From NCBI GenBank assembly GCA_963681505.1, contig OY811990.1, forward strand, positions 113,767 through 177,766: a DNA stretch of 64,000 nucleotides, in the 5' to 3' direction. Positions within the stretch are counted from its first letter, which is position 1. Each line of letters starts with the position of its first letter. Origin of the DNA: Eunapius fragilis. Taxonomy: Eukaryota > Porifera > Demospongiae > Spongillida > Spongillidae. Positions 1 to 48,897 of this stretch are shown here, piece by piece. The notes beneath the pieces are model-generated. The model made no database searches. It saw only the letters and a list, made by a program, of their open reading frames with translations, and was not told the origin of the DNA. The translations under genes and the position numbers were made by a program.

Positions 1-313
1 TCCCCTGCGACGTTCATCATTTTAGTTTGCAATTGGCTAAGTCTATTAGTTCAGTTTAAACATTTTATGTGCAGGATCAAGTGGGGTAACAAGTTGGAAT
101 GAAATCCTGTTGCCTCTACAGTTACAATGGGTAACAGCTGGAAATCAAACATTGTTTTTATCCGCGTGGTAGAAACTGTCTCCAAGAAAGGGAGTGCATC
201 GTGGCAGGGTAATAGTCATAGCAATCATCCCATACTTTGTTTTGATAGCAATACGCATCTTTCACGCATTTTCCTTCAAGTGTTAACACATACAGTCGTT
301 AATTTCACAGAAG

Positions 314-789
314 ATGGCACTTGTTCCGATTCAGAAACTTCAAACTACAAATGGAGACAAGGTAAAAGTTGGACAACGCTGCGATCGTCGGTATGTCGTA
401 ATTATAAAAGAGTCAATTTTTTTGCTGACATCCCACTAGGATCGTTAACCGATATGCAGGGCACTATAGATGGAGCTTAGCAACTTGGACAGCGAATCGA
501 TTGCTGAAATTTGCAACAACAGTGATGAGGACGATAAGAAAACTGAAAATGGGAGATACGCTACTGAATCCAAGAGATCAGCTGCCTTCGAGAAATCTAG
601 AGCAGGTATTTTTTGTGCATGCATTAGCTATTTATTTGTTGTTGTTCTACATATGTAGACACCAAGAAAAAAACGGAAGCAAAAGGACAGAAAAAGCATA
701 TTGGAGTATTTTTTAAGCAAAAGGGAAGTATCAAAAAAGGGAAGTATCAAAGCACTGGCATTCAAGCCTCACAAGCTGACAGCAACTGA
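314..789 (+). CDS. Putative three-exon small gene, unknown function (left arm)
   Basis: I do not recognise this protein. A consistent splice model is exon 1 at 314-390 (ATG start, donor GTATGT), exon 2 at 481-605 (acceptor TTAG, donor GTATTT) and exon 3 at 659-789 (acceptor TGTAG, stop TGA). Phases match at both junctions, giving 110 codons. The product would start MALVPIQKLQ, then have an acidic patch (NNSDEDDKK) and a lysine-rich tail (TKKKTEAKGQKKH), suggesting a soluble nucleic-acid-associated or nuclear protein, but that is a guess from composition. Other splice choices are possible: an upstream frame starting at 127 could join at 311 through a phase-compatible intron, and another acceptor at 439 gives a different frame. 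The same arrangement recurs in the right arm. Confidence 0.35.
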
Positions 790-2367
790 GCTCTTCTAAG
801 ACTGTTCTGTTTTGTATTACACATTTGTATTTTGATAACTGAAAAAGGTTTATTATGGCAACTTATAAATTTAATTAACAACATTATAGTGCTTTTTAAG
901 CGTCGAGGTTCAACGCGCTTTAACACCTTTTTAACGCATTAAGGTGACAGGGTACCCTCCTGGATTTTGAAAAAAAAAATCATATTAGCCTGTAGCCTGA
1001 GAGCATCTTAGAGGACCGTATCATTTTGACAGTTATTAGATGAGCAGTAAAAATAGTACAAATTAAACTTTATAATTGGTTTGTTGAAAACTGTAGTGCT
1101 TAAAAATCACCATATTTATGAAATAAGACCTTCTTTCGTTTGGTGCATTCGTTTCGAAACAGAGCAGTAGGTTTTGTGCCAAAGCTTACACTAACCATCA
1201 TTTCAGAGTGAACTAATTGGGCTACTCATGGGTTACTCCTGCTGGACATTCCAGAACAGCTAGTTTATCATGAATACACGTTCTACATTACTTAATTGTC
1301 TTTTTGGTGCATCGATAACATTACTATCCTTTTCCACAAATTTACAGTAATGTTTTACAAAGTAATGCATCCCTGGATACAATATTTGTACCTTGAAATT
1401 GAAATAATACTAATAGATAGATTTTCGGTTTTCAGCTATTTAGAAAAAAGTAACTTATTTAGAAAACAAGGACAAGAGATTTTCCTACACGTACGCTCTT
1501 CATGGTGCTTAGCTCCTATCATAATAATATGCTCAACACTCAATCATAAGGTCTGTTGTCCTGAATGTACAGGAAAAGAGTTTTTGCCGTTCGTATTTCA
1601 AGGTGCTAAAACAAGCCGTGCTAGTGTTTCTGCGCGTTATTCAAATGCTATCAAGGTGGCATATCTTAAACAATAAGGTGGATTCTCTCCGAATTATATA
1701 CGGTACTTGAACAGAACTACCATTTTTTGATGACATTTTTAAATAATTCAGACCCCAAAAAACATGGCGGACTCAAACTGCGCATGCATGCGCGAATTAA
1801 AAGATGGAGGATGCGAAAATTCAAGGCATGCGCTCGGTTAAATACGTTACTTACCCAAATGGTATCAAGGTGGCATATCTTAACAATAAGGTGGATCTTA
1901 CCAAATTTTTTCCAAAAAAACATTGTTATGGGTACAACTACCTTAAGTCAACAACGCTTGACAATGCATTCTATCATCTATCAACGCATTATTATGTATC
2001 ACAATTTATCGGCTATCGTGCTCTCATGTGCCATTCTGACGCAATTCAGAGCGATTCAATGCACCTAATCACAGTAATTTTATTGGCACTGATGTTAATC
2101 ACCAGTGCTTTAGTCGCGATAAGCGAGTCATACTGGTCAGCGCTATTTTTCACTCGGGCCCACACTCTTCAACATCTGGGCACCCCCCTCTTACATAGAT
2201 GTCGCACTTCCATGTTGGAATCTGACCCTCCACTCTCCCCTTTTCCATCCAGTAGAGATCTCCCGATGGAGCCCCACCTCCTCCACATTGTCCCCCCTCC
2301 TAAACTGTGCATCTTTCACGTCACACAAAAAATAAATTGCACATCTTCCAAGACAGAGGTACAAATG
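790..2367. other. Intergenic, no convincing gene
   Basis: AT-rich. An imperfect direct duplication of about 45 bases, containing ATCAAGGTGGCATATCTTAA, is present near 1650-1690 and 1860-1905. The phrase AAAACAAGCCGTGCTAGTG near 1607 recurs near 12967. The longest frame (1804-2454) runs into a CA microsatellite and has no recognisable domain, so it is not called. Confidence 0.5.
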
Positions 2368-2368
<1 letters not shown>

Positions 2369-2416
<48 letters not shown>

Positions 2417-2429
2417 TAACACACACACA
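2369..2429. repeat. CA microsatellite
   Basis: (CA)n with interruptions. The right-arm copy (about 40354-40422) is 4 bases longer, so this is one of the length differences between the arms. Confidence 0.95.
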
Positions 2430-2767
2430 ACATGGAAAGTCCAGTGCTACTTAGGATTAGTGGTAAGGATGGCTGTTATGTTTGCTATGACCAAATGCAA
2501 TGTCTATGGATGTCACCAGTAACATGTTTGGAAGAGGTCACTATGGTCCAAATATGTACTAAAAATGACACCAGTGCCTCATTATTTGCAGAGTACTACA
2601 CATAAAGTCATGAGCTATTAGCTGGCCTACCTGATTTCAACACCAGAACCACTAAATCCAAGTAGCACTGGTGTATATATATGTGTGTATGTATGTGTGT
2701 AGCATTATGCATGGCTTCTTTCTAGGAAGCCGTGCAGTTTATTTTTATGATACCTGTAGATCCTCTC

Positions 2768-3266
2768 CAGCGGCGGATACAGGTTTTGGGGGGGGGGGGG
2801 GGCACGGATGGTGGGTGTGGCTGGGGGTGGGGTCGGCTTCTGGCCCGATACGAAAAGCGGGGGGGGGGGGGGGGGGTGCTGTCGGTTTATGGCCCGATAC
2901 GAGGAGCGGGGGGGGGGGGGGGGGGGGTGCTGTCGGTTTATGGCCCGATACGAGGAGCGGGGGGGGGGGGGGGGGGGGGGGTGCTGTCAGATTCTGGCCC
3001 AAAACGAAGAGCGGGGGGGGGGGGGGGGGGGGTGCTGTTGGTTTCTGGCCCGATACGAAGGGCGGGGGGGGGGGGAGTATGATCGCGTATCGGGGGGCCC
3101 GGGATATAGTACAGTAGTAGAGTTCATGCGTGCGGATATCAATAGACAGCGCAATCGTGCAGCTATATTATAAAATGCGGCCCGAAAAGTTATGAATTTA
3201 TTAATGAAGGGGGGGGGGGGGGGGGGGGCACGTGCCCCGAGTGCCCCCCCCCTGGATCCGCCGCTG
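2768..3266. mobile_element. 499-bp MITE with poly-G tandem array, left arm only
   Basis: The termini are CAGCGGCGGATACAGG at the left and the complement of CAGCGGCGGATCCAGG at the right. A 5-bp target duplication CTCTC lies at 2763-2767 and 3267-3271. The interior is four or five tandem units of roughly 55-60 bases, each joining a run of G to a phrase containing GGCCCGATACGA. The right arm has the empty site with a single CTCTC (40008-40012, read on the opposite strand). The short duplication and the CAGNGGCGGAT end resemble hAT-type MITEs, some of which make 5-bp duplications. Open frames through the G runs are artefacts. Confidence 0.9.
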
Positions 3267-3644
3267 CTCTCTGAAAGAAGACCTACTTTAGTAGACCAAC
3301 TTTTACTGGTATTGAAGCCCACCAGGAATATTGTTCCTGTTGTATCCCAAATGGTTGAGAACTGGGGCCTGGAAATTTTATATAACAGTCAGACTGAGAA
3401 GGTAATTCCTAAGTCATTTTACACCTCTCAATGGTGCACAGTGAGTTTGAGCATACGTAGTGAATGGCATGGGATAGGTGTGAGTGGGTATGAGTGTGTG
3501 TGAGTGTGTGTGTGGTATGTGTGGTGGTCAATTTTATATATCTGGGTGCAAACTTATGGGATACTAGCATGTAATGAATATGGGCCATGAGCAATGGTTC
3601 ACCATCATGTGGCAGGTGCTGTGAGACAGGAACATATACTCAAG

Positions 3645-3865
3645 TACATAGAACACACCAGTCCAGTATATACAACACACCAGTCCAGTACATACAACAC
3701 ATCAGTCCAGTACATACAACTACGGTAGGCGTGTGTGTGAGGGGAGGGGGCAATGCCCCCCCTCTGATAAAAGTGCAATTGTCCCCACAGCCTCCATGCT
3801 CTTATATCACTGACTCAATTACATGGAACACATCAGTCCAGTTACATGCGTGAAAAACACATCAG
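3645..3865. repeat. Minisatellite, CCAGTCCAGTACATACAACA type
   Basis: About 21-base units with the core CAGTCCAGTACATACAAC repeat three times in tandem (3655-3722) and again loosely near 3835-3860. The complementary phrase is the unit of the larger array at 48270-48730. The right-arm copy is near 39414-39634. Confidence 0.75.
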
Positions 3866-4019
3866 CGACATAGAGACCATTGGACATGACCATGTAGATG
3901 AGACCATGGGATATGAGCATACAGTGAAGGGCTTGAGTGCATTATTGGAAGGTATGAGATATGGGTAACCAGAAAAGACATACTACCATTTTTGTGCAGA
4001 TACAATTATGACCACTAAA

Positions 4020-4930
4020 GAAATAAGAAGGTAATGAAGTTTATTTGCACATGTACATGTACAATGTAGGACCAAACATAAAGAGAATGAATCTGAATTT
4101 AAACATTGCAAAAATAGTTGTGAAAGAGGTAATATAGGCCAACTTAACCAAAGACAAAGTATTTTTTTTTTCAAATTGTAGCACACAACATAACAATTTA
4201 CAGGGTATATAAAGTAAGGGGGGAAAAGAATAGTGTCATATGGTGGAAAGAGTATGTATACGTGTGACATGAGTCGTGTGTGTGTGTGTGAGTGTGTGTG
4301 TGTGTGTGTGGTGTGTGGTGTGTGCGCGTGCACATTCATGTGCGTTACATACAAATAGCTGCAAGTGGGTATGCCAGCCATGCAGATGAAATGAAAAACG
4401 GTGGGTAGTTGAAATAATATGAGCCAGCAGGATGCAAATTCCAACAATAAGGAAAGGGTTACATGTGTTTCAGCCCAGCTGCGCTGTGGCTTTGACCCAA
4501 CCATGCCTCTCCCCCAGCTGATACACCATGCATTTTATCTCATGGCTCTGATTACTGTTAGCGCTGTGAGCTTATAAATGGCCACGCAATGAAGAGTTTG
4601 ACCGAATAGACAAGCACTAGATTTCTACACGATGTTGTGCATGCCTATCGGTATTGGTAGTATGTACAGTGTTGTGTATGGTGATGGTGGCTGAATCCAT
4701 GTGTTTCGATCGCTTAATGAATCTTGTTCGCTATAGAAGAGGAAAGAGAAACACTGACATTTGTAAGAAGCGAAAAGAAGTGGTCTTTCCAGTTATATGT
4801 GTTATCATGGCATGGGCCCAGGGCTGTACAGTATATTCATGTGCTCGGAGTAACCCGAACCAGGTCGTAATAGGTTAATGGTGCGATATGAATGAGAAAT
4901 GTGCAATTACTTTGCACAGTTGTATGTCCG
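4020..4930 (+). repeat. Dispersed repeat unit, copy A (left arm)
   Basis: Includes a TG microsatellite (4275-4325), a block beginning near 4575 with GAGTTTGACCGAATAGACAA, and an end near 4930 with GTGCAATTACTTTGCA. The same order of blocks is found at 42880-43690, and the later blocks are found on the minus strand at 63340-63720. No terminal repeats or target duplications were found. The short frame at 4654-4878 shares residues with frames in the other copies (for example FDRLxNLVRYRR), so the unit may derive from a coding sequence, but it is not identified. Confidence 0.6.
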
Positions 4931-5269
4931 TAATGGATCAAGCAAAAAAACTAACGAACATATCAATTCAATAGGTACAGGATCTCTCTACATATAAACC
5001 AAATTTGAATGAATTGAATTTTCCTACCAAAAGATATGGTGGTTTGAACCACAAGGGGTATTGGACATTGCAACACCAATACAAAGCATATGAAAGAGCC
5101 CAAAAAGGATTCTACCAGAGAGAAATGATGTAGTGCATACAACAGGAGCTGCTATACATAAGTGATTTGACGCTAACAAAGGCCTTGGACAAAATTCCTT
5201 CAATAGAGGCTGTCTAAAGTACTCAGTATACGGGAGCTTTAAAATCCTACAACAGAAGCTAAACCTGAG

Positions 5270-5990
5270 GATGCAGCTGCCTATAGAGTGTTCCCCTCCA
5301 AGAACGGCAGCTGTTACAGATGTGGGGGGATGGGCCACTTGGCATCTTCATGCTTTCAAAAGGATAAAACCTGCAATTCCAGTGGAAAACTGGGACACTT
5401 ATCCCAAGTATGTAGAGGCAAGTTGTCAGCAGGACGTCAATGCACATCATCCAGCTCGATAAGTACATTTGGTGGAACCAGATTTGGACCTCAGTGACTG
5501 CCAAAGCAGTGATGAGGAGCACCAGTATGTGTACATAGGGTAGCTAATAGGGATAGATATCCCAAGCTAAACTGGATATCAATGGTAGTGTAGTAAAATT
5601 TGAGGTCGATACAGGTGCAGACGTATCCACAATTCAAGCAAAAAACGTACAGAACAAATTAGCGTGCAACCAATGTCAGGAGTGCTCTATCAATACGATG
5701 GAACCATCCTTCCTACCGTGGGGAAGGTCTGAGCAAAGGTTTTGATGAAAAACCAGTCGGCAGAAGGCTGCTTCATCATTGTGGAGTATGCTGACAAGCA
5801 TCTTCCATTGCCGAGCTGTGATTTTCTGTGTAAGCTCCGTTTGGACAGATCTAAAATGCTAAGGAGTAATACTACAGATGGTCCCAGGATACATGCTATC
5901 CACAGTGTAAACTTGTTGAATGAGTTCCCTGATGTGATGGATGAAAAGTTGGGACTACTTAAGGGAACCAAGGCTGAAATTCAGCTTTAA
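5270..5990 (+). pseudogene. Gypsy-type retroelement: gag zinc knuckle, protease and start of RT (decayed, left arm)
   Basis: Near 5310 a frame encodes a CCHC zinc knuckle (CYRCGGMGHLASSC), followed by a second knuckle that has lost a cysteine (CNSSGKLGHLSQVC). Near 5570-5640, in another frame, an aspartic protease active site is readable (VDTGADVST). At 5742-5990 a third frame has the spacer that precedes Gypsy reverse transcriptase (NEFPDVMDEKLG). These features occur in the order expected for Gypsy gag-pol. Several frameshifts and stops separate them, and the reverse transcriptase is cut off at about 6015 by an inserted element. It resumes at 7216. Confidence 0.8.
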
Positions 5991-6015
5991 GAGGGCATAG
6001 TGCCAGTGTTCTGCA

Positions 6016-7213
6016 CAGGGTTTGTACATATATTTATGTGGTCAAAATAAGACTTTTTAATGCCTTTATAATGTAAAATACATAATAGATGTACATGTAC
6101 ATGCAAATGGACATTGGAGTCAGGGTTCCACCAGCTAAGATTAGCTAGCCAGTAGCCACTCCTTAGCCAGGGATAAATTGTAGCTATTAACAAATAGCCA
6201 CTTAGCCAACAATGAACATAAATTCATTACCACGTGATTGCTTGCGGTTCAACTGGTGAATCAGAACAAAGTGCTAGTACAAAACTGATGCAATTTTCTT
6301 AATGAATGGTCTCTGAGTTACTTTTTTAAAAACCTTGTATCTAACAAAGCATACTATATCTGCAATCTTAAGCACATGCTTTGATGTGGTGCAGATAGAG
6401 ATTGTGGAACTACATGTACATACTGTATGACCACTGAACCTGCAAACCTTTGTTACCATCGTAAAATGCGCATGGTTTAGAAGCCCCTTTGTAACTGAAA
6501 GAACTGGTAATTCTAGCAAATGATAACAAAATTCAAAACAGATTGGCCTCGACGACAATGATATATACCTGCATTATTTGTACTACGTATTAAGCTGTTG
6601 TGCTAGCTGTCTCTGAAGGGAGCTGAACGGTTATTCTCAACTAAGGACCTCTTATTATGTACTTTCACCAGTATCTCCAATCACAACTAAAGCACTCATC
6701 CTCACCCGCTGGAACCACGATTTGGTGAAAAGGCAGTATGTTAGAGAGTTCCCAATGGATGTACAAGATGTTGAGTTTGATGAAAAGACGTGTTTATTCC
6801 ACTTTTGTCCTCATGTGCTTTATGTTATATGGTGTAAAAGCAATACTATATATTAGCCAGCTAGCCAATAAATTTTGAAATAGCCAGCTTGCCTCAATAG
6901 CTACATAGCCAGTGGAGCCCAGGTTGGAGCACAATATTCAGTCTTACCAATAGCTCATACACCTCCATCACACTATCTCATTCCCAGGCCAGCACGGGCA
7001 TGTAGTACACCACAATGTACATGTCGCTATACATCTGGGATGCAATGCATCCAGGTTTTCTCGTTATTTGGGGATGCAGTTAAAAGACAAGAGAGACATG
7101 GGGCAAAATTAAATGCCTTTTTAATAGCCATATTGGCGCTTTATCAATAAATATACAAGACTTAATGCCCTTTTTAATAGCATTTACTGATTTAATGCCT
7201 TTTCAATACCCTG
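6016..7213. mobile_element. hAT-like insertion splitting the Gypsy relic (left arm)
   Basis: The insertion begins CAGGGT (6016) and ends ACCCTG (7213). Its last ~115 bases contain repeated phrases such as AATGCCTTTTTAATAG. It interrupts Gypsy pol between the codons for PVFC and YKPVPFALKEP. No clean target duplication was found, so the exact ends are approximate. No transposase frame is visible. The CAGGGT ends are common in hAT families. A further element (6120-6923) sits inside it. Confidence 0.55.
6120..6923. mobile_element. Nested 804-bp MITE with 6-bp target duplication (left arm)
   Basis: Imperfect inverted ends (TCAGGGTTCCACCAGC against the complement of CCTGGGCTCCACTGGC) are flanked by TTGGAG at 6114-6119 and 6924-6929. 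Just inside each end are runs of TAGCCA/TTAGCC repeats. No coding sequence is seen. It lies wholly inside the hAT-like insertion, giving three nested levels. Confidence 0.7.
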
Positions 7214-7215
7214 TA

Positions 7216-7730
7216 AGAACTCTGTTTGTAAGTACAAACCAGTGCCATTTGCATTAAAGGAACCAGTGGAAGAGACAATAAGGCAACAAGTCAAGGAAGG
7301 AGGAGCTGGAGCCAGTGGAGCGAAGTGACTGGACAGCCGAATATGTGCTGATTTCAAAATTACTACTAATCCACATCTCTGCCCTAAGACCTTTTGCTTG
7401 CCTACTGTGGACGAAATTTTCTCTAGAACATGAAATGAAAATAGAATGCCCTTGCCATTATTTTTGCTGTAAAAAAGCTCCATCAGCATGTATGTGGCAA
7501 AGAGTTTGTGTTGGTTACAGACCATAAACCATTGTTGGGCATGACAATGGAATTCCAACACAAGCTGTAGTATGAGTGGATTGAGTGCAGAGATGGGGAT
7601 AATATATTGGGGGCATATCAATATAAAATTGAGTATGTCCCAGGGTCAGAAAATGTGTGCCTACTGTAGTTGCAGTTGCCAGTTCAAACGACAGTAGCTG
7701 TGGCAATGACATCTTAGCTATGGATATGGC
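7216..7730 (+). pseudogene. Gypsy-type retroelement: RT start fused to RNase H (decayed, left arm)
   Basis: The reverse transcriptase resumes with YKPVPFALKEPVEETIRQQV (about 7230), then IxCADFKITTNPHLCPKTFC and LPTVDEIFS (to about 7420). It then jumps directly to RNase H: LAIIFAVKKLH (about 7455), VTDHKPLLGM (about 7525) and IEYVPGSENVC (about 7630). The catalytic palm of the reverse transcriptase is missing, so a large internal deletion has occurred, and several frameshifts are present. It is the downstream half of the relic at 5270-5990. Confidence 0.75.
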
Positions 7731-8929
7731 TTCATTACCAGTGACTGCTAAGATATTTCTAAGGGCACTGGAACAGAAAAAGATATACCAACTGTACTCC
7801 AATTTGTTCGCCATGGTAAATGGCCTTTGTCTCTAGCAGGAAAGTTGCAAACCATATCACAGGAGGCAGATTGAGTTGAGCTGTCAGGATAATTGTTTGC
7901 TGTGAGGTCGACGGATGATTATACTAACATCTTTGTACCATACACTACTTTAATTACATTTATGTCAAATGCCCTGGGTGTACTCTGTGGAGCACGTTTG
8001 TACATCATGGCTACGCGAAACAAAGCTTTTTTTTCGTTCTGCCATTACGGCATTCTAGCGATATTTGACAGTTGCCATGTTGTACAGGTCCTTATCTGTT
8101 TGGGCCGACAGAAAGCCTAAGACCTTCTGCTACTCTTACAGCAATGCTCATAGCAGAGGTATCCGGTACCGTGCGTAACACATGTGAACTTAAAAAACAA
8201 CCCAGAGTCAGAGATAACTTTAAGTGGCCATATGTATAACTTTTTTTATTGAACACGGTACCTTCAATAATTTGGACAGTAGCTAGCTGCTAATGTGAAA
8301 ATTTTAAAACATACATGTATACACTGCAAGGCAAATGCATATACACATGTGTGACTTAATTTTGCCAAATTATTTGAATGGTGAATGGAGTCATCTGTAG
8401 GGCATGGCTATTAGTATAATGCCATGTTTTTATTTTATTATTATAGGGCATGTCACATGCCATTACGAAGAATGACGTTTTCAGAAACTAACATGCCGCC
8501 TAAAAAATGACAATTCCCAAATGAAATTCAAAGGCAGAGAGGGGGTTATCGAAAGAGTCGTAAATGAAGGCAACACTATAAGTTCCCAGTCCTGTTCCAA
8601 GGGGTAGGTTACGCACTTGTCAGCACACTAATCGGCGAATTTATAATCGGTTTAGGTGAATTTGCAGCCTTATCACTAGATAGCTGGATGAATTTATGTG
8701 TTGTAGTGACATTGAAGGGACTGTTTTTGAAACGTTTTTCTTTATAGGATTCAGCTCCACACAGTCACTTCCAGGGCAATTGTGTGATCCTGCATTCATA
8801 CTCCATTCACCACAAGAAATGCAACAAGCTTTTCTTGCTGCACGTACCCCTATTTTGATACTGACTCTGTATGGTGTGTAGGTGCACATGTGTACTTGTG
8901 TGGCATGTGTGAGGTGCACGTGCGATGTA
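7731..8929. other. Intergenic, no gene recognised
   Basis: The frames here (for example 7893-8120 and 8641-8919) are short and show no recognisable domain. The first part may still be decayed Gypsy sequence downstream of RNase H, but I could not find integrase motifs. Confidence 0.4.
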
Positions 8930-9262
8930 CAGTACTGCTCGCAAGTAAGCTGAAAGAACTCGCACGTAGAGTTTTCGTTTCGTGCAACTCGTTGGCGTCG
9001 TGTGAGTAATGTGTGTGTGAAGTATTAGTAGGGTTAGTCTGTTACCTATGGTGTGAACGAGACGGTACTCGCAAACTAACTTGCGAGTAAGGTTCGTGCG
9101 AACAATACGGCAATCGTGTGGTTACTCGTTTATGTTTGCGTGCGTGTGCGTATCGGTACTTGCTTGTGCTTCGTATGCAAACGAGTGGGATACATGCATG
9201 CTCTTGAGTGGGACATGTGTGTTTCACTCGAGTGTTCCTCAACGTACTCGTGGGCAGTACTG
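8930..9262. mobile_element. 333-bp Tc1/mariner-type MITE (left arm)
   Basis: Bounded by TA dinucleotides (8928-8929 and 9263-9264), with ends CAGTACTGCTCGCAAGTA and the complement of CAGTACTGCCCACGAGTA. TA duplication and CAGT termini fit Tc1/mariner. The interior is rich in CGTGCG/ACTCG phrases and has no coding capacity. Confidence 0.8.
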
Positions 9263-9296
9263 TACGGGTGACATGATATGTGTATGTGCAGTGTGC

Positions 9297-9326
9297 GATT
9301 ACGTTAGCCTATAGGCTAACGTAATC
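9297..9326. repeat. Perfect 30-base palindrome (left arm)
   Basis: GATTACGTTAGCCTA is followed at once by its exact reverse complement with no loop. It lies 35 bases beyond the end of the mariner MITE. It may be the remnant of a very short inverted-repeat element or a protein-binding palindrome. Nothing else in the sequence distinguishes these. Confidence 0.9.
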
Positions 9327-10147
9327 CTGCAGGACAGCTCGCGTGCCGATAGTATCTAGCATTATTCACACTCACTTCCGTTCAATGGACGCTTTTCTGT
9401 TCAAATGCGATCTCTTCAAAAGGTTGAGCTGCTGCCTGAAGAAGACACGTGCAATGCGATCAGATGATGCGGTTAGATGTGGTAGCGTATGAATTTTCCA
9501 ACGATAGATAATTGCCATCGAACTAAATCAACATTTTCCACGCAGGCAACTTCTTCAGCATGGCATTGAATGAATAACATTATTCGAATTAACAACACAT
9601 ATCCAAAACTGAAGTGGTTCAGGAGCCACACACCACAATTGAAGAGTTCAATAGGGTGGTAAATGGCTGACAGTACAAAGACCATGTACAACAAAGACTG
9701 ACCATAGTTAAGAGAAACTGATTCTACAGCATGCAAAACCATAATAAGATAATGAGTACATATGGATCTTTATATATAAGAGCAGTAATTGTTTTGTACA
9801 CAACCATTACAGCAGGACCAAGTTCAACGAAGGTTGTAAAGAAAGGGGGTGAAGCAATCATGCACAACTTCTTGGACTTCACAACTTCTTGGACTCTAAT
9901 TATATATGATCTTCATGTATCCTATTCAAGGATATGAAGATTAACACTTTAATGTCCCTTTTGTGTGTGTTTTACATCAGGTCATGATGAGGCACCAGGT
10001 TCACTTTGCAACTTGCTGAAAAGATGCTGGCACATTGTAAGTTCAAAAATAGATTTTCATGGGTAGCAGATTCCATGTAATATTTTCCAACTTGAAACAC
10101 CATAGTCAGTAATGATTAATACAGGGAGAAGATTGCTCTAAGAGTAA

Positions 10148-10255
10148 CAGTGGCGGATCCAGCATATTTTAGGTTCATTAAAACCGGGCAATTATGGGCC
10201 CGTGCCCGTAATTGCCCGGTTTTAATGAGCCTAAAATATGCCTGGATCGCCACTG
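10148..10255. mobile_element. 108-bp hairpin MITE, CAGTGGCGGATCCAG type (left arm)
   Basis: An almost complete foldback: the first half runs CAGTGGCGGATCCAGCATAT and the second half is its complement, meeting near GGGCCCGTGCCC. A 5-bp duplication AGTAA flanks it (10143-10147 and 10256-10260). The ends match the families at 2768-3266 and 11202-11389. Confidence 0.9.
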
Positions 10256-11201
10256 AGTAAGGTTCTTTTAAACTAAGCCATGACTTTGCAACTATAACAT
10301 TCATGCAGCAGGTACCATCCACAGAAGCATCATCAGCATACCAGATCGTTTCCTTTGACAGCGCTTGCCAAACTGTCTCAAAAAGGACTTACATGTAAAA
10401 GGGACCCTCTATCAACGGTGTTGTATGACACTGAATTACTTACTGCGAACAGTGCCATTATAGAGGGTTACCTTGGTAGCACCATGTTTATTGTATGCAT
10501 GGTACGTATAGGGTGTTCTTTCCGACAACTTTATTACATGTACTCATTTTTGTGGATAAATTGTTTGGCTTGCAAATCCGGTAGCAAACCCAAACTGACC
10601 GCATTCTGCACCACAAAGTCTTTTGTGTTGAACGCACAAAGTGTTCTGCTGCTAGGGCCTATATATAATTATATGTTGGCGTGTAGCAAGTACCTGCATA
10701 GGTACAGCTGAGACGGTTCCAGTTCATCTTCTAAAAGTGAGTCCGGTATATTGCCCAATTGTGTATTCATAGGCAGTATATCCCGCTATTCAAATGTCAT
10801 GAAGTCATCCTTAGCGTAATACGCTTTTTTGTTGTTAATGTTATTGCTGTTGGGACTCATCTCGCTAGTTACATTTAACGAATGGCACGTTGTACTACAA
10901 ATCATTAAAGATTCTAATAGCAGCACGCTGCATACTAGTTGAGCTATCCGCATGTTTTTTTTTTCACAGCACGCAATGGATATATTATTTTCACGTGCCA
11001 CGTTAGTGCTTGTAAACAATGCATGTTTTGGAGGTAGAGAGCTGAGTGGGTGACTTCCACGGGAATGCACACCTCATGTCTCACTGAACCACTACCAATC
11101 ACGAAGTGTGAACAAAGTGCAGAATTTTCAATTGGCACTTGCAGAACTGGTCAACCTGGAATTGGGGCCACGCTGCCTGTCAGCTTTTGGCAGCAGGGCA
11201 G

Positions 11202-11389
11202 CAGGGGCGGACGTACGAAGGAGGCGTGGCAGATAAAGAGGGGGGGGGGAGGGGGGGGGGGGTTAATGATTTATTCATGCAGATTGCCTAATTTTCTGCT
11301 ATGAATAATATTATCCAAGGGCTGGAAGGGAGGGGGTTGAACCCCCCCACCCCCCCCCCCCCCCCCCCCCTCGCCTACATCCGCTACAG
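11202..11389. mobile_element. 188-bp MITE with internal poly-G and poly-C (left arm)
   Basis: Ends CAGGGGCGGACGTA and the complement of CTGTAGCGGATGTA, with a 5-bp duplication GGCAG at 11197-11201 and 11390-11394. It contains a G run near 11240 and a C run near 11350, which could pair with each other. The C run differs by 6 bases between the arms. Same end type and duplication length as the elements at 2768 and 10148. Confidence 0.75.
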
Positions 11390-11394
11390 GGCAG

Positions 11395-13612: not shown

Positions 13613-13768
13613 GGGGCTGTTCATAAATTACGACACGCTGAAGGGGGGGAGGCGTTGTGTCGATGTATACATTAAGCATACATGAGTATGGGATGATGTG
13701 TGACGAGGGGTGGGGGGGGGGGGGGGGGGGGTCCATAATATAGCGTGACGTAATTTATGAACGGCCCC
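13613..13768. mobile_element. 156-bp MITE with GGGGCTGTTCATAAATTACG ends (left arm)
   Basis: The left end is GGGGCTGTTCATAAATTACG and the right end is the complement of GGGGCCGTTCATAAATTACG. A run of about 20 G lies near 13710. Target duplication is not clear. Similar foldback ends occur widely in invertebrate MITEs, but no superfamily is assigned. Confidence 0.75.
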
Positions 13769-16010: not shown

Positions 16011-16029
16011 CACCTTGTTTCTTATGATT

Positions 16030-27256: not shown

Positions 27257-27275
27257 AATCATAAGAAACAAGGTG

Positions 27276-28880: not shown

Positions 28881-29011
28881 CACGTCAACAAAAGAGGAGA
28901 GCTAACCGACGAGAGGAATACCTCCGAAGTCGAGACGACGAGTTAGAATCCTCGCGCGTTCGGTACATTGCTGATCCTGAACAAAAGCGGGCGTCTGCTC
29001 GTGACGGTAAT
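28881..29011 (+). pseudogene. Arginine-rich repeat-protein fragment (right arm)
   Basis: Mirror copy of 14275-14405. Here the frame RRANRREEYLRSRDDELESS reads on the plus strand. Confidence 0.3.
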
Positions 29012-29517
29012 TGAAGTGCTTCAATTAAAGAAGTTACGTTATAACTATAACTTGTCAGCACTTGCAATTGGCAGTATTCGCAAATATCAACAAGTAGATG
29101 TCTTTGTACGCGACGGGATCCGCAACATGCTTAGGGGTACTGACGTCGTGGACCACCCTTTTTGCCTTGTGGCAAAATCCGATATTGTGCTACTTTAGCT
29201 TTTGGTCCCATCGAATTATGCATAAATAAACGATAATTAATTGTTAAACCGGAAATAACAGGTTGTTAACCAGTTATGAAAAAAAGAACAACCGACCGGT
29301 TAATTTACTATCCCCTAGGGTTTTTTTTTTTTTAATTTTAATAACCTATTACAGCCGGTTTTTCCAAACTAACAGGTTTCAAGCCTTAATTGAACGATAA
29401 CACAAATGTGAACCATTTTGCGTTGGTTCTTGGCCATAACACATGACTACATCTCAGTATGCTGCCGGGAACCACAAATCAATAGATTGGCGCGGTAATG
29501 ACATCCAAAGAAACTGA

Positions 29518-29672
29518 GGGGCCGTTCATAAATTACGTCACGCTATATTATGGACCCCCCCCCCCCCCCCCCCACCCCTCGTCACACATCATCCCATACT
29601 CATGTATGCTTAATGTATACATCGACACAACGCCTCCCCCCCTTCAGCGTGTCGTAATTTATGAACAGCCCC
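29518..29672. mobile_element. MITE with GGGGCCGTTCATAAATTACG ends (right arm)
   Basis: Mirror copy of 13613-13768. The homopolymer is one base shorter. Confidence 0.75.
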
Positions 29673-31895: not shown

Positions 31896-32077
31896 CTGTA
31901 GCGGATGTAGGCGAGGGGGGGGGGGGGGGGGGGGGGGTTCAACCCCCTCCCTTCCAGCCCTTGGATAATATTATTCATAGCAGAAAATTAGGCAATCTGC
32001 ATGAATAAATCATTAACCCCCCCCCCCCTCCCCCCCCCCTCTTTATCTGCCACGCCTCCTTCGTACGTCCGCCCCTG
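31896..32077. mobile_element. MITE with internal poly-G and poly-C (right arm)
   Basis: Mirror copy of 11202-11389, with a homopolymer 6 bases shorter. The flanking duplication CTGCC is at 31891-31895 and 32078-32082. Confidence 0.75.
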
Positions 32078-33023
32078 CTGCCCTGCTGCCAAAAGCTGAC
32101 AGGCAGCGTGGCCCCAATTCCAGGTTGACCAGTTCTGCAAGTGCCAATTGAAAATTCTGCACTTTGTTCACACTTCGTGATTGGTAGTGGTTCAGTGAGA
32201 CATGAGGTGTGCATTCCCGTGGAAGTCACCCACTCAGCTCTCTACCTCCAAAACATGCATTGTTTACAAGCACTAACGTGGCACGTGAAAATAATATATC
32301 CATTGCGTGCTGTGAAAAAAAAAACATGCGGATAGCTCAACTAGTATGCAGCGTGCTGCTATTAGAATCTTTAATGATTTGTAGTACAACGTGCCATTCG
32401 TTAAATGTAACTAGCGAGATGAGTCCCAACAGCAATAACATTAACAACAAAAAAGCGTATTACGCTAAGGATGACTTCATGACATTTGAATAGCGGGATA
32501 TACTGCCTATGAATACACAATTGGGCAATATACCGGACTCACTTTTAGAAGATGAACTGGAACCGTCTCAGCTGTACCTATGCAGGTACTTGCTACACGC
32601 CAACATATAATTATATATAGGCCCTAGCAGCAGAACACTTTGTGCGTTCAACACAAAAGACTTTGTGGTGCAGAATGCGGTCAGTTTGGGTTTGCTACCG
32701 GATTTGCAAGCCAAACAATTTATCCACAAAAATGAGTACATGTAATAAAGTTGTCGGAAAGAACACCCTATACGTACCATGCATACAATAAACATGGTGC
32801 TACCAAGGTAACCCTCTATAATGGCACTGTTCGCAGTAAGTAATTCAGTGTCATACAACACCGTTGATAGAGGGTCCCTTTTACATGTAAGTCCTTTTTG
32901 AGACAGTTTGGCAAGCGCTGTCAAAGGAAACGATCTGGTATGCTGATGATGCTTCTGTGGATGGTACCTGCTGCATGAATGTTATAGTTGCAAAGTCATG
33001 GCTTAGTTTAAAAGAACCTTACT

Positions 33024-33131
33024 CAGTGGCGATCCAGGCATATTTTAGGCTCATTAAAACCGGGCAATTACGGGCACGGGCCCATAATTGCCCGGTTTTA
33101 ATGAACCTAAAATATGCTGGATCCGCCACTG
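33024..33131. mobile_element. 108-bp hairpin MITE (right arm)
   Basis: Mirror copy of 10148-10255, flanked by TTACT. Confidence 0.9.
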
Positions 33132-33952
33132 TTACTCTTAGAGCAATCTTCTCCCTGTATTAATCATTACTGACTATGGTGTTTCAAGTTGGAAAATATT
33201 ACATGGAATCTGCTACCCATGAAAATCTATTTTTGAACTTACAATGTGCCAGCATCTTTTCAGCAAGTTGCAAAGTGAACCTGGTGCCTCATCATGACCT
33301 GATGTAAAACACACACAAAAGGGACATTAAAGTGTTAATCTTCATATCCTTGAATAGGATACATGAAGATCATATATAATTAGAGTCCAAGAAGTTGTGA
33401 AGTCCAAGAAGTTGTGCATGATTGCTTCACCCCCTTTCTTTACAACCTTCGTTGAACTTGGTCCTGCTGTAATGGTTGTGTACAAAACAATTACTGCTCT
33501 TATATATAAAGATCCATATGTACTCATTATCTTATTATGGTTTTGCATGCTGTAGAATCAGTTTCTCTTAACTATGGTCAGTCTTTGTTGTACATGGTCT
33601 TTGTACTGTCAGCCATTTACCACCCTATTGAACTCTTCAATTGTGGTGTGTGGCTCCTGAACCACTTCAGTTTTGGATATGTGTTGTTAATTCGAATAAT
33701 GTTATTCATTCAATGCCATGCTGAAGAAGTTGCCTGCGTGGAAAATGTTGATTTAGTTCGATGGCAATTATCTATCGTTGGAAAATTCATACGCTACCAC
33801 ATCTAACCGCATCATCTGATCGCATTGCACGTGTCTTCTTCAGGCAGCAGCTCAACCTTTTGAAGAGATCGCATTTGAACAGAAAAGCGTCCATTGAACG
33901 GAAGTGAGTGTGAATAATGCTAGATACTATCGGCACGCGAGCTGTCCTGCAG

Positions 33953-33982
33953 GATTACGTTAGCCTATAGGCTAACGTAATC
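33953..33982. repeat. Perfect 30-base palindrome (right arm)
   Basis: Mirror copy of 9297-9326, identical. Confidence 0.9.
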
Positions 33983-34016
33983 GCACACTGCACATACACA
34001 TATCATGTCACCCGTA

Positions 34017-34349
34017 CAGTACTGCCCACGAGTACGTTGAGGAACACTCGAGTGAAACACACATGTCCCACTCAAGAGCATGCATGTATCCCACTCGTTT
34101 GCATACGAAGCACAAGCAAGTACCGATACGCACACGCACGCAAACATAAACGAGTAACCACACGATTGCCGTATTGTTCGCACGAACCTTACTCGCAAGT
34201 TAGTTTGCGAGTACCGTCTCGTTCACACCATAGGTAACAGACTAACCCTACTAATACTTCACACACACATTACTCACACGACGCCAACGAGTTGCACGAA
34301 ACGAAAACTCTACGTGCGAGTTCTTTCAGCTTACTTGCGAGCAGTACTG
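34017..34349. mobile_element. Tc1/mariner-type MITE (right arm)
   Basis: Mirror copy of 8930-9262, with TA on both flanks. Confidence 0.8.
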
Positions 34350-35548
34350 TACATCGCACGTGCACCTCACACATGCCACACAAGTACACATGTGCACCTA
34401 CACACCATACAGAGTCAGTATCAAAATAGGGGTACGTGCAGCAAGAAAAGCTTGTTGCATTTCTTGTGGTGAATGGAGTATGAATGCAGGATCACACAAT
34501 TGCCCTGGAAGTGACTGTGTGGAGCTGAATCCTATAAAGAAAAACGTTTCAAAAACAGTCCCTTCAATGTCACTACAACACATAAATTCATCCAGCTATC
34601 TAGTGATAAGGCTGCAAATTCACCTAAACCGATTATAAATTCGCCGATTAGTGTGCTGACAAGTGCGTAACCTACCCCTTGGAACAGGACTGGGAACTTA
34701 TAGTGTTGCCTTCATTTACGACTCTTTCGATAACCCCCTCTCTGCCTTTGAATTTCATTTGGGAATTGTCATTTTTTAGGCGGCATGTTAGTTTCTGAAA
34801 ACGTCATTCTTCGTAATGGCATGTGACATGCCCTATAATAATAAAATAAAAACATGGCATTATACTAATAGCCATGCCCTACAGATGACTCCATTCACCA
34901 TTCAAATAATTTGGCAAAATTAAGTCACACATGTGTATATGCATTTGCCTTGCAGTGTATACATGTATGTTTTAAAATTTTCACATTAGCAGCTAGCTAC
35001 TGTCCAAATTATTGAAGGTACCGTGTTCAATAAAAAAAGTTATACATATGGCCACTTAAAGTTATCTCTGACTCTGGGTTGTTTTTTAAGTTCACATGTG
35101 TTACGCACGGTACCGGATACCTCTGCTATGAGCATTGCTGTAAGAGTAGCAGAAGGTCTTAGGCTTTCTGTCGGCCCAAACAGATAAGGACCTGTACAAC
35201 ATGGCAACTGTCAAATATCGCTAGAATGCCGTAATGGCAGAACGAAAAAAAAGCTTTGTTTCGCGTAGCCATGATGTACAAACGTGCTCCACAGAGTACA
35301 CCCAGGGCATTTGACATAAATGTAATTAAAGTAGTGTATGGTACAAAGATGTTAGTATAATCATCCGTCGACCTCACAGCAAACAATTATCCTGACAGCT
35401 CAACTCAATCTGCCTCCTGTGATATGGTTTGCAACTTTCCTGCTAGAGACAAAGGCCATTTACCATGGCGAACAAATTGGAGTACAGTTGGTATATCTTT
35501 TTCTGTTCCAGTGCCCTTAGAAATATCTTAGCAGTCACTGGTAATGAA

Positions 35549-36063
35549 GCCATATCCATAGCTAAGATGTCATTGCCACAGCTACTGTCGTTTGAACTGG
35601 CAACTGCAACTACAGTAGGCACACATTTTCTGACCCTGGGACATACTCAATTTTATATTGATATGCCCCCAATATATTATCCCCATCTCTGCACTCAATC
35701 CACTCATACTACAGCTTGTGTTGGAATTCCATTGTCATGCCCAACAATGGTTTATGGTCTGTAACCAACACAAACTCTTTGCCACATACATGCTGATGGA
35801 GCTTTTTTACAGCAAAAATAATGGCAAGGGCATTCTATTTTCATTTCATGTTCTAGAGAAAATTTCGTCCACAGTAGGCAAGCAAAAGGTCTTAGGGCAG
35901 AGATGTGGATTAGTAGTAATTTTGAAATCAGCACATATTCGGCTGTCCAGTCACTTCGCTCCACTGGCTCCAGCTCCTCCTTCCTTGACTTGTTGCCTTA
36001 TTGTCTCTTCCACTGGTTCCTTTAATGCAAATGGCACTGGTTTGTACTTACAAACAGAGTTCT
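35549..36063 (-). pseudogene. Gypsy RT/RNase H relic (right arm)
   Basis: Mirror copy of 7216-7730, with the same deletion of the RT palm. Confidence 0.75.
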
Positions 36064-36065
36064 TA

Positions 36066-37263
36066 CAGGGTATTGAAAAGGCATTAAATCAGTAAATGCT
36101 ATTAAAAAGGGCATTAAGTCTTGTATATTTATTGATAAAGCGCCAATATGGCTATTAAAAAGGCATTTAATTTTGCCCCATGTCTCTCTTGTCTTTTAAC
36201 TGCATCCCCAAATAACGAGAAAACCTGGATGCATTGCATCCCAGATGTATAGCGACATGTACATTGTGGTGTACTACATGCCCGTGCTGGCCTGGGAATG
36301 AGATAGTGTGATGGAGGTGTATGAGCTATTGGTAAGACTGAATATTGTGCTCCAACCTGGGCTCCACTGGCTATGTAGCTATTGAGGCAAGCTGGCTATT
36401 TCAAAATTTATTGGCTAGCTGGCTAATATATAGTATTGCTTTTACACCATATAACATAAAGCACATGAGGACAAAAGTGGAATAAACACGTCTTTTCATC
36501 AAACTCAACATCTTGTACATCCATTGGGAACTCTCTAACATACTGCCTTTTCACCAAATCGTGGTTCCAGCGGGTGAGGATGAGTGCTTTAGTTGTGATT
36601 GGAGATACTGGTGAAAGTACATAATAAGAGGTCCTTAGTTGAGAATAACCGTTCAGCTCCCTTCAGAGACAGCTAGCACAACAGCTTAATACGTAGTACA
36701 AATAATGCAGGTATATATCATTGTCGTCGAGGCCAATCTGTTTTGAATTTTGTTATCATTTGCTAGAATTACCAGTTCTTTCAGTTACAAAGGGGCTTCT
36801 AAACCATGCGCATTTTACGATGGTAACAAAGGTTTGCAGGTTCAGTGGTCATACAGTATGTACATGTAGTTCCACAATCTCTATCTGCACCACATCAAAG
36901 CATGTGCTTAAGATTGCAGATATAGTATGCTTTGTTAGATACAAGGTTTTTAAAAAAGTAACTCAGAGACCATTCATTAAGAAAATTGCATCAGTTTTGT
37001 ACTAGCACTTTGTTCTGATTCACCAGTTGAACCGCAAGCAATCACGTGGTAATGAATTTATGTTCATTGTTGGCTAAGTGGCTATTTGTTAATAGCTACA
37101 ATTTATCCCTGGCTAAGGAGTGGCTACTGGCTAGCTAATCTTAGCTGGTGGAACCCTGACTCCAATGTCCATTTGCATGTACATGTACATCTATTATGTA
37201 TTTTACATTATAAAGGCATTAAAAAGTCTTATTTTGACCACATAAATATATGTACAAACCCTG
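36066..37263. mobile_element. hAT-like insertion splitting the Gypsy relic (right arm)
   Basis: Mirror copy of 6016-7213. Confidence 0.55.
36356..37159. mobile_element. Nested 804-bp MITE (right arm)
   Basis: Mirror copy of 6120-6923, flanked by CTCCAA. Confidence 0.7.
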
Positions 37264-37288
37264 TGCAGAACACTGGCACTATGCCCTC

Positions 37289-38009
37289 TTAAAGCTGAAT
37301 TTCAGCCTTGGTTCCCTTAAGTAGTCCCAACTTTTCATCCATCACATCAGGGAACTCATTCAACAAGTTTACACTGTGGATAGCATGTATCCTGGGACCA
37401 TCTGTAGTATTACTCCTTAGCATTTTAGATCTGTCCAAACGGAGCTTACACAGAAAATCACAGCTCGGCAATGGAAGATGCTTGTCAGCATACTCCACAA
37501 TGATGAAGCAGCCTTCTGCCGACTGGTTTTTCATCAAAACCTTTGCTCAGACCTTCCCCACGGTAGGAAGGATGGTTCCATCGTATTGATAGAGCACTCC
37601 TGACATTGGTTGCACGCTAATTTGTTCTGTACGTTTTTTGCTTGAATTGTGGATACGTCTGCACCTGTATCGACCTCAAATTTTACTACACTACCATTGA
37701 TATCCAGTTTAGCTTGGGATATCTATCCCTATTAGCTACCCTATGTACACATACTGGTGCTCCTCATCACTGCTTTGGCAGTCACTGAGGTCCAAATCTG
37801 GTTCCACCAAATGTACTTATCGAGCTGGATGATGTGCATTGACGTCCTGCTGACAACTTGCCTCTACATACTTGGGATAAGTGTCCCAGTTTTCCACTGG
37901 AATTGCAGGTTTTATCCTTTTGAAAGCATGAAGATGCCAAGTGGCCCATCCCCCCACATCTGTAACAGCTGCCGTTCTTGGAGGGGAACACTCTATAGGC
38001 AGCTGCATC
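37289..38009 (-). pseudogene. Gypsy gag knuckle, protease and RT start (right arm)
   Basis: Mirror copy of 5270-5990, with the same degenerate second zinc knuckle and frameshifts. Confidence 0.8.
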
Positions 38010-38347
38010 CTCAGGTTTAGCTTCTGTTGTAGGATTTTAAAGCTCCCGTATACTGAGTACTTTAGACAGCCTCTATTGAAGGAATTTTGTCCAAGGCCTT
38101 TGTTAGCGTCAAATCACTTATGTATAGCAGCTCCTGTTGTATGCACTACATCATTTCTCTCTGGTAGAATCCTTTTTGGGCTCTTTCATATGCTTTGTAT
38201 TGGTGTTGCAATGTCCAATACCCCTTGTGGTTCAAACCACCATATCTTTTGGTAGGAAAATTCAATTCATTCAAATTTGGTTTATATGTAGAGAGATCCT
38301 GTACCTATTGAATTGATATGTTCGTTAGTTTTTTTGCTTGATCCATT

Positions 38348-39259
38348 ACGGACATACAACTGTGCAAAGTAATTGCACATTTCTCATTCATATCGCACCA
38401 TTAACCTATTAGACCTGGTTCGGGTTACTCCGAGCACATGAATATACTGTACAGCCCTGGGCCCATGCCATGATAACACATATAACTGGAAAGACCACTT
38501 CTTTTCGCTTCTTACAAATGTCAGTGTTTCTCTTTCCTCTTCTATAGCGAACAAGATTCATTAAGCGATCGAAACACATGGATTCAGCCACCATCACCAT
38601 ACACAACACTGTACATACTACCAATACCGATAGGCATGCACAACATCGTGTAGAAATCTAGTGCTTGTCTATTCGGTCAAACTCTTCATTGCGTGGCCAT
38701 TTATAAGCTCACAGCGCTAACAGTAATCAGAGCCATGAGATAAAATGCATGGTGTATCAGCTGGGGGAGAGGCATGGTTGGGTCAAAGCCACAGCGCAGC
38801 TGGGCTGAAACACATGTAACCCTTTCCTTATTGTTGGAATTTGCATCCTGCTGGCTCATATTATTTCAACTACCCACCGTTTTTCATTTCATCTGCATGG
38901 CTGGCATACCCACTTGCAGCTATTTGTATGTAACGCACATGAATGTGCACGCGCACACACCACACACCACACACACACACACACACTCACACACACACAC
39001 ACGACTCATGTCACACGTATACATACTCTTTCCACCATATGACACTATTCTTTTCCCCCCTTACTTTATATACCCTGTAAATTGTTATGTTGTGTGCTAC
39101 AATTTGAAAAAAAAAAATACTTTGTCTTTGGTTAAGTTGGCCTATATTACCTCTTTCACAACTATTTTTGCAATGTTTAAATTCAGATTCATTCTCTTTA
39201 TGTTTGGTCCTACATTGTACATGTACATGTGCAAATAAACTTCATTACCTTCTTATTTC
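38348..39259 (-). repeat. Dispersed repeat unit, mirror of copy A (right arm)
   Basis: Mirror of 4020-4930. It differs from the left copy by single-base indels, for example near 38412 and 39117. Confidence 0.6.
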
Positions 39260-40007
39260 TTTAGTGGTCATAATTGTATCTGCACAAAAATGGTAGTATG
39301 TCTTTTCTGGTTACCCATATCTCATACCTTCCAATAATGCACTCAAGCCCTTCACTGTATGCTCATATCCCATGGTCTCATCTACATGGTCATGTCCAAT
39401 GGTCTCTATGTCGCTGATGTGTTTTTCACGCATGTAACTGGACTGATGTGTTCCATGTAATTGAGTCAGTGATATAAGAGCATGGAGGCTGTGGGGACAA
39501 TTGCACTTTTATCAGAGGGGGGGCATTGCCCCCTCCCCTCACACACACGCCTACCGTAGTTGTATGTACTGGACTGATGTGTTGTATGTACTGGACTGGT
39601 GTGTTGTATATACTGGACTGGTGTGTTCTATGTACTTGAGTATATGTTCCTGTCTCACAGCACCTGCCACATGATGGTGAACCATTGCTCATGGCCCATA
39701 TTCATTACATGCTAGTATCCCATAAGTTTGCACCCAGATATATAAAATTGACCACCACACATACCACACACACACTCACACACACTCATACCCACTCACA
39801 CCTATCCCATGCCATTCACTACGTATGCTCAAACTCACTGTGCACCATTGAGAGGTGTAAAATGACTTAGGAATTACCTTCTCAGTCTGACTGTTATATA
39901 AAATTTCCAGGCCCCAGTTCTCAACCATTTGGGATACAACAGGAACAATATTCCTGGTGGGCTTCAATACCAGTAAAAGTTGGTCTACTAAAGTAGGTCT
40001 TCTTTCA

Positions 40008-40012
40008 GAGAG
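40008..40012. other. Empty target site of the 499-bp MITE (right arm)
   Basis: GAGAG here is a single copy of the CTCTC target duplication, and the flanking sequence on both sides matches the left arm. The element is therefore absent in this arm with no footprint, which points to insertion in the other arm and not loss from this one. Confidence 0.9.
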
Positions 40013-40370
40013 GATCTACAGGTATCATAAAAATAAACTGCACGGCTTCCTAGAAAGAAGCCATGCATAATGCTACACACATACATACACACATATAGAC
40101 ACACATATATATACACCAGTGCTACTTGGATTTAGTGGTTCTGGTGTTGAAATCAGGTAGGCCAGCTAATAGCTCATGACTTTATGTGTAGTACTCTGCA
40201 AATAATGAGGCACTGGTGTCATTTTTAGTACATATTTGGACCATAGTGACCTCTTCCAAACATGTTACTGGTGACATCCATAGACATTGCATTTGGTCAT
40301 AGCAAACATAACAGCCATCCTTACCACTAATCCTAAGTAGCACTGGACTTTCCATGTTGTGTGTGTGTTA

Positions 40371-40423
<53 letters not shown>

Positions 40424-42001
40424 CATTTGTACCTCTGTCTTGGAAGATGTGCAATTTATTTTTTGTGTGACGTGAAAGATGCACAGTTTAGGAGGGGGGA
40501 CAATGTGGAGGAGGTGGGGCTCCATCGGGAGATCTCTACTGGATGGAAAAGGGGAGAGTGGAGGGTCAGATTCCAACATGGAAGTGCGACATCTATGTAA
40601 GAGGGGGGTGCCCAGATGTTGAAGAGTGTGGGCCCGAGTGAAAAATAGCGCTGACCAGTATGACTCGCTTATCGCGACTAAAGCACTGGTGATTAACATC
40701 AGTGCCAATAAAATTACTGTGATTAGGTGCATTGAATCGCTCTGAATTGCGTCAGAATGGCACATGAGAGCACGATAGCCGATAAATTGTGATACATAAT
40801 AACGCGTTGATAGATGATAGAATGCATTGTCAAGCGTTGTTGACTTAAGGTAGTTGTACCCATAACAATGTTTTTTTGGAAAAAATTTGGTAAGATCCAC
40901 CTTATTGTTAAGATATGCCACCTTGATACCATTTGGGTAAGTAACGTATTTAACCGAGCGCATGCCTTGAATTTTCGCATCCTCCATCTTTTAATTCGCG
41001 CATGCATGCGCAGTTTGAGTCCGCCATGTTTTTTGGGGTCTGAATTATTTAAAAATGTCATCAAAAAATGGTAGTTCTGTTCAAGTACCGTATATAATTC
41101 GGAGAGAATCCACCTTATTGTTTAAGATATGCCACCTTGATAGCATTTGAATAACGCGCAGAAACACTAGCACGGCTTGTTTTAGCACCTTGAAATACGA
41201 ACGGCAAAAACTCTTTTCCTGTACATTCAGGACAACAGACCTTATGATTGAGTGTTGAGCATATTATTATGATAGGAGCTAAGCACCATGAAGAGCGTAC
41301 GTGTAGGAAAATCTCTTGTCCTTGTTTTCTAAATAAGTTACTTTTTTCTAAATAGCTGAAAACCGAAAATCTATCTATTAGTATTATTTCAATTTCAAGG
41401 TACAAATATTGTATCCAGGGATGCATTACTTTGTAAAACATTACTGTAAATTTGTGGAAAAGGATAGTAATGTTATCGATGCACCAAAAAGACAATTAAG
41501 TAATGTAGAACGTGTATTCATGATAAACTAGCTGTTCTGGAATGTCCAGCAGGAGTAACCCATGAGTAGCCCAATTAGTTCACTCTGAAATGATGGTTAG
41601 TGTAAGCTTTGGCACAAAACCTACTGCTCTGTTTCGAAACGAATGCACCAAACGAAAGAAGGTCTTATTTCATAAATATGGTGATTTTTAAGCACTACAG
41701 TTTTCAACAAACCAATTATAAAGTTTAATTTGTACTATTTTTACTGCTCATCTAATAACTGTCAAAATGATACGGTCCTCTAAGATGCTCTCAGGCTACA
41801 GGCTAATATGATTTTTTTTTTCAAAATCCAGGAGGGTACCCTGTCACCTTAATGCGTTAAAAAGGTGTTAAAGCGCGTTGAACCTCGACGCTTAAAAAGC
41901 ACTATAATGTTGTTAATTAAATTTATAAGTTGCCATAATAAACCTTTTTCAGTTATCAAAATACAAATGTGTAATACAAAACAGAACAGTCTTAGAAGAG
42001 C

Positions 42002-42477
42002 TCAGTTGCTGTCAGCTTGTGAGGCTTGAATGCCAGTGCTTTGATACTTCCCTTTTTTGATACTTCCCTTTTGCTTAAAAAATACTCCAATATGCTTTTT
42101 CTGTCCTTTTGCTTCCGTTTTTTTCTTGGTGTCTACATATGTAGAACAACAACAAATAAATAGCTAATGCATGCACAAAAAATACCTGCTCTAGATTTCT
42201 CGAAGGCAGCTGATCTCTTGGATTCAGTAGCGTATCTCCCATTTTCAGTTTTCTTATCGTCCTCATCACTGTTGTTGCAAATTTCAGCAATCGATTCGCT
42301 GTCCAAGTTGCTAAGCTCCATCTATAGTGCCCTGCATATCGGTTAACGATCCTAGTGGGATGTCAGCAAAAAAATTGACTCTTTTATAATTACGACATAC
42401 CGACGATCGCAGCGTTGTCCAACTTTTACCTTGTCTCCATTTGTAGTTTGAAGTTTCTGAATCGGAACAAGTGCCAT
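42002..42477 (-). CDS. Putative three-exon small gene, unknown function (right arm)
   Basis: Mirror copy of 314-789: exons at 42401-42477, 42186-42310 and 42002-42132. All splice signals and the reading frame are preserved. Since both arms are nearly identical this adds no independent evidence of selection. Confidence 0.35.
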
Positions 42478-42879
42478 CTTCTGTGAAATTAACGACTGTA
42501 TGTGTTAACACTTGAAGGAAAATGCGTGAAAGATGCGTATTGCTATCAAAACAAAGTATGGGATGATTGCTATGACTATTACCCTGCCACGATGCACTCC
42601 CTTTCTTGGAGACAGTTTCTACCACGCGGATAAAAACAATGTTTGATTTCCAGCTGTTACCCATTGTAACTGTAGAGGCAACAGGATTTCATTCCAACTT
42701 GTTACCCCACTTGATCCTGCACATAAAATGTTTAAACTGAACTAATAGACTTAGCCAATTGCAAACTAAAATGATGAACGTCGCAGGGGAGGATGAGGCT
42801 GATGACAGTGATGAGCCTCCAGTAAAGAAAGCAGCAGTAGAGGTGGAATTAAAAATTGAACTCATGAATCGCGACAAAG

Positions 42880-48895: not shown

Positions 48896-48897
48896 TC

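Follow-up and report, generated by a model that had tools for sequence, protein, structure and literature searches.

The described systems which are closest to the locus studied here are the false duplications of genome assemblies and the palindromes of sex chromosomes. In the excerpts of PMC9516828 and PMC8081667 that deal with heterotype false duplications, allele-like copies lie on one scaffold with a gap between them, and differ by SNPs and by insertion polymorphism. The same features are seen here, except that the second copy has the opposite orientation and is spread over two contigs. Homotype false duplications, according to the part of PMC8081667 used here, are often located at contig boundaries and have about the length of a read. 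The inner 18 kb of the present locus resemble them (one substitution, position at a contig end, a last 1.5 kb rich in indels), but here they are continuous with a diverged outer part. A type that combines homotype and heterotype duplication is described in the legend of Extended Data Fig. 6c of PMC8081667. The palindromes of sex chromosomes, as presented in excerpts of PMC3723533 and PMC8981503, also have long inverted arms with more than 99% identity, whereas here the arms are not joined by any contig and the outer flanks match each other.

The excerpt of PMC9516828 gives half depth, a gap between the members of the pair, discordant links and 1-copy k-mers as the marks of a false duplication. 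The one of these four marks that was assessed here, the gap between the pair on one scaffold, is present (window 21301-21500). There is very little doubt that a false heterotype duplication, to which a homotype part may be added at the end of the contig, explains the locus, and that the locus is not a biological palindrome.

The window, which is the whole stretch of 64,000 nucleotides that was analysed, corresponds to C20:113767-177766, where C20 is a scaffold of 6.0 Mb. The sequence compared amounts to 257.8 kb (the window, 113.8 kb to its left and 80 kb to its right), and the genome that was searched for further copies is an assembly of 219 Mb in 24 sequences. The sequence-only reading had asked whether the window starts where the scaffold starts; it does not, since 113.8 kb of C20 precede it. 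Five runs of N are found in the 257.8 kb. Four of them are exactly 200 long (at C20:39829, 63678, 85174 and 135067) and all lie inside the first 135.3 kb of C20, while the fifth, beyond the right edge of the window, is longer and may be a gap. The contigs are as follows:

C20:1-39828, contig a, bounded by a 200-N gap
C20:40029-63677, contig b, between 200-N gaps
C20:63878-85173, contig c, 21,296 bases, between 200-N gaps
C20:85374-135066, contig d, 49.7 kb, which carries the left arm
From C20:135267 (window 21501 onwards), contig e, which starts the right arm

A literature search on the gap length used by scaffolders gave no match, and no scaffolder is therefore named. Tandem repeats of the telomere type (nine motifs, at least four consecutive copies) were not found in the 257.8 kb, so there is no sign of a telomere fusion point at the centre.

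The mirrored part of the window consists of the following elements:

Window 1..21300, minus strand, in-window part of the left arm: the final 21.3 kb of contig d, interpreted as the alternate haplotype and reversed with respect to the right arm
Window 21301..21500, no strand, centre gap: 200 N, as in the three further gaps of the first 135.3 kb
Window 21501..21979, plus strand, unpaired start of contig e: its first 479 bases, without a partner in the left arm
Window 21714..22261, plus strand, high-copy repeat: about 548 bases, with terminal inverted repeats
Window 21980..59208, plus strand, right arm: the start of contig e, same locus as C20:97396-135066 reversed

In inverted orientation, window 3267-21300 pairs with 21980-40012 at 99.87% identity (18,045 columns, one mismatch, 18 gap openings), and window 1-2767 pairs with 42790-40008 at 99.4% over 2,783 columns. 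The match is so long that a chance match is excluded. When the flanking sequence is included, the full arms are C20:97396-135066 and 135746-172974, that is, window -16370..21300 and 21980..59208. Each arm thus measures about 37 kb, and the left arm, which is contig d reversed and minus its first 12 kb, extends beyond the window by 16.4 kb on the upstream side. Counted along the entire arm, the two copies differ by 57 substitutions (37,138 aligned columns) and by 30 indels.

The mirror symmetry which the sequence-only reading had reported for positions 1 to 42790 is thus real, and so is the 200-N gap that it had placed at the centre, but its right limit has to be moved: position 42790 is the mirror point of the first base of the window, not the end of the symmetry, and the pairing goes on to window 59208. 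The arms had also been said to be alike except for one transposon, changes in the length of homopolymers and microsatellites, and a few indels. This describes the inner arm well, where most of the differences are length changes, but not the outer 19 kb, which contain ordinary substitutions.

What separates a palindrome from two haplotypes of one locus is the sequence outside the arms. A palindrome predicts that the symmetry ends at the arm boundaries and that the outer flanks are unrelated. The relevant features on the right side are:

Window 59202..59208, plus strand, empty site in the right arm: in the other version, this position is occupied by an insertion of about 13.2 kb, the flanks of which are on two different contigs
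Window 59202..64000, plus strand, outer flank of the right arm: direct match to C20:49595-54394 (contig b), 98.9% identity

The homology of contig d to contig e ends where C20:97396 matches C20:172974, and that of contig b to contig e starts where C20:49595 matches C20:172968. Contigs d and b meet contig e at the same 7 bases, one of which differs in b. From there, contig b is collinear with contig e, in direct orientation, over 4,810 columns at 98.9% identity, up to where the window ends, which is as far as the collinearity of d and b with contig e was followed. The left outer flank is therefore continued on another small contig, collinear with the right outer flank. Since the flanks match each other, as is expected of two haplotypes of one locus but not of a palindrome, the locus is almost certainly present as two haplotypes: of the two explanations offered by the sequence-only reading, the head-to-head join of two haplotypes is the one that the flanks support, and the real palindrome is not supported by them.

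Because both flanks are found at the same 7 bases of contig e, contigs d and b belong together, and reversed d followed by b makes up a second version of the contig e locus. Insertion aside, d and b parallel contig e over 42 kb. The two contigs also overlap by 8,342 identical bases within the insertion, an overlap which by itself could also come from a repeat that is present twice. The insertion, which the contig e version of the locus lacks, lies in C20:85374-97395 and 40029-49594; its size of about 13.2 kb was calculated from coordinates, as the overlap plus the private parts of d and b, the pieces not being joined. A stretch of 3,681 insertion bases, taken from the section private to contig d, occurs at four other genomic places with 100% identity and at more places with 95-99% identity. 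At least this 3.7-kb part, which was the part searched, is therefore recently active mobile DNA, and the whole insertion would be one element. The second version, with one large insertion, one small transposon and SNPs, looks like the pattern of two haplotypes. Copies that are collinear including their outer flanks, and that differ by SNPs and by insertions present in one of them only, are what a heterotype duplication should show, and this was observed up to the end of the window.

The divergence between the arms increases outwards. Successive bins of 3 kb, from the centre, contain 1, 0, 0, 0, 0, 0, 1, 3, 16, 10, 8 and 13 substitutions, and the last 1.2 kb contain 5, so that 56 of the 57 substitutions are in the outer 19 kb and one is in the inner 18 kb. 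One microsatellite about 26.9 kb from the centre holds 13 of the 57. At the rate of the outer part (43 substitutions outside this microsatellite in 19.2 kb), about 40 would be expected in the inner 18 kb. The near-identity of the inner part (one substitution instead of about 40) and the outward rise count against an artefact because arm-to-arm conversion that is strongest near the centre of a palindrome would give the same result. This gradient is the best argument for a real palindrome, which would have arms of 37 kb around a short spacer, with gene conversion between the arms, and which the assembler would have broken at the centre; the ends of contigs d and e do lie no more than about 480 bases apart on the sequence that they share. 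The argument is weakened, however, because the rise continues on contig b, outside the mirrored pair (31 substitutions in 4,789 columns, 0.65%), and because heterozygosity with a patchy distribution would look the same. The palindrome also has against it that no sequence connects the arms and that contig d ends in 1.5 kb of indel-rich sequence, in addition to the collinear flanks, and it is extremely improbable. Hardly any weight can be given either to its variant, a young palindrome close to one end of a scaffold of chromosome size in which conversion would fade outwards (1 versus 56 substitutions).

The divergence of up to 0.65% on contig b would also suit a true segmental duplication, in which d and b would be a paralogous copy from elsewhere in the genome that was misplaced here. 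So would the tail of contig b (C20:54395-63677, 9.3 kb): the 75 kb beyond the window, where a long N run and repeats interrupt the comparison, contain no allelic partner for it, and none of the 40 best candidates scored in each genome search is a near-identical copy. The first 10 kb past the N run beyond the right edge of the window are largely repeats. On the contrary, a 3-kb piece of the arm has full-length matches at two places, both in this pair, and no third place among the candidates scored (best 40 of 836), while one substitution in 18 kb would require a very recent duplication, or conversion. Contig a, which repeats a segment of C14, suggests a simpler cause, and a segmental duplication is very unlikely. 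The tail of contig b without a partner, the one of the 7 site bases which differs in b, and contig c, which is not redundant where it was searched, were nevertheless counted against an artefact.

Between 1.5 and 18 kb from the centre, there is no substitution between the arms; this part may for this reason be homozygous, or a single haplotype may have been assembled two times there, as in the homotype pattern of the PMC8081667 excerpt. The inner 18,028 columns contain 17 single-base indels, and 11 of them are in the first 1,500 columns from the end of contig d (binomial p ~1e-8). Judged by eye, 10 of these 11 alter the length of a run of at least two equal bases; in 9 of the 11, bases are lost in contig d. 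An open reading frame (ORF) in this region differs between the arms, and has a paralogue further to the right:

Window 19193..19915, plus strand, membrane-protein-like ORF, left-arm copy, with a frameshift near residue 237
Window 23105..24094, minus strand, membrane-protein-like ORF, right-arm copy, intact, 329 aa
Window 44039-45025, paralogous ORF, intact, 328 aa, 72% identical to the 329-aa ORF at 23105-24094

By eye, the 329- and 328-aa ORFs look like multi-pass membrane proteins. Neither of them matches a Pfam model at 1e-3, and the 329-aa ORF has no PDB sequence match at E 1. The Pfam search covered five of the nine listed ORFs, and the only match among these five was that of the reverse-transcriptase RNase H ORF at 59256. 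The frameshift in the left copy may be a mere consensus error. Together with the cluster of indels, it would reflect a thinly covered and unpolished end of contig d rather than the decay of a pseudogene.

At the centre, the arms are joined by the 200-N gap alone. Contigs d and e both end there, and no contig crosses the centre from one arm to the other. Contig d stops inside the high-copy repeat of about 548 bases, and contig e extends 479 bases further into the gap. These unpaired bases consist of about 210 bases that match only themselves, followed by the left half of the repeat. In the genome search with the 479 bases, the high-copy repeat was the sole match elsewhere, and no second place was found for the first ~210 bases (best 40 of 224 candidates scored in both cases).

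The neighbouring contigs were sampled in parts. Contig a is in register with C14:2756347-2796189, at about 100% identity, in three stretches of 6 kb (the first 6 kb, 20001-26000 and the last 6 kb, or 18,000 of 39,828 bases). It is probably another redundant contig in the same chain, or possibly a real duplication between C14 and C20. The last 6 kb of contig a match equally well a second place of C14 located 17.5 kb further on (2790188 and 2807716), and this doubled segment of C14 is a possible tandem duplication polymorphism. Of the 21,296 bases of contig c, 6,000 were searched, and these are single copy apart from a short dispersed repeat.

The contig structure, the collinearity, the empty sites and the error-rich contig end are observed. 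We infer from them alleles of one diploid, scaffolding based on contacts, and a failure of purging. The sequenced individual would have carried two haplotypes of the locus. One would have been assembled as contig e (window 21501 onwards), and the other as at least two small contigs, d (C20:85374-135066) and b (C20:40029-63677), broken within the insertion of about 13.2 kb which contains multi-copy mobile DNA. Purging would have failed to remove contigs d and b, and the scaffolder would have put them at the end of the scaffold with 200-N gaps, probably through the long-range contacts that allelic contigs share. The larger contig d would have been placed reversed, its inner end facing its own allele.

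As a consequence, the genes in C20:97-173 kb probably enter gene counts of the assembly twice, and the first ~135 kb of scaffold C20 merit review. More generally, looking for a collinear continuation of the outer flank on a further small contig is a cheap test for palindromes which needs sequence only.

The transposon that the sequence-only reading had singled out as distinguishing the arms is confirmed:

Window 2768..3266, minus strand, transposon of 499 bp with terminal inverted repeats and a 5-bp flanking repeat, in the left arm only

Its empty site is at the mirror position, near window 40008, and its presence in one arm and absence from the other, together with the 5-bp flanking repeat, is a second difference of the allele type. 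Other repeats are found within both arms. Window 10148-10255 and 33024-33131 hold a repeat of about 110 bases whose sequence is self-complementary at 91%; among the candidates scored, 33 further places match it at 95-100%. An inverted pair of about 440 bases, 94% identical and 2.8 kb apart (15057-15488 and 18302-18748; in the mirror, 24539-24985 and 27798-28229), possibly corresponds to the ends of one transposon.
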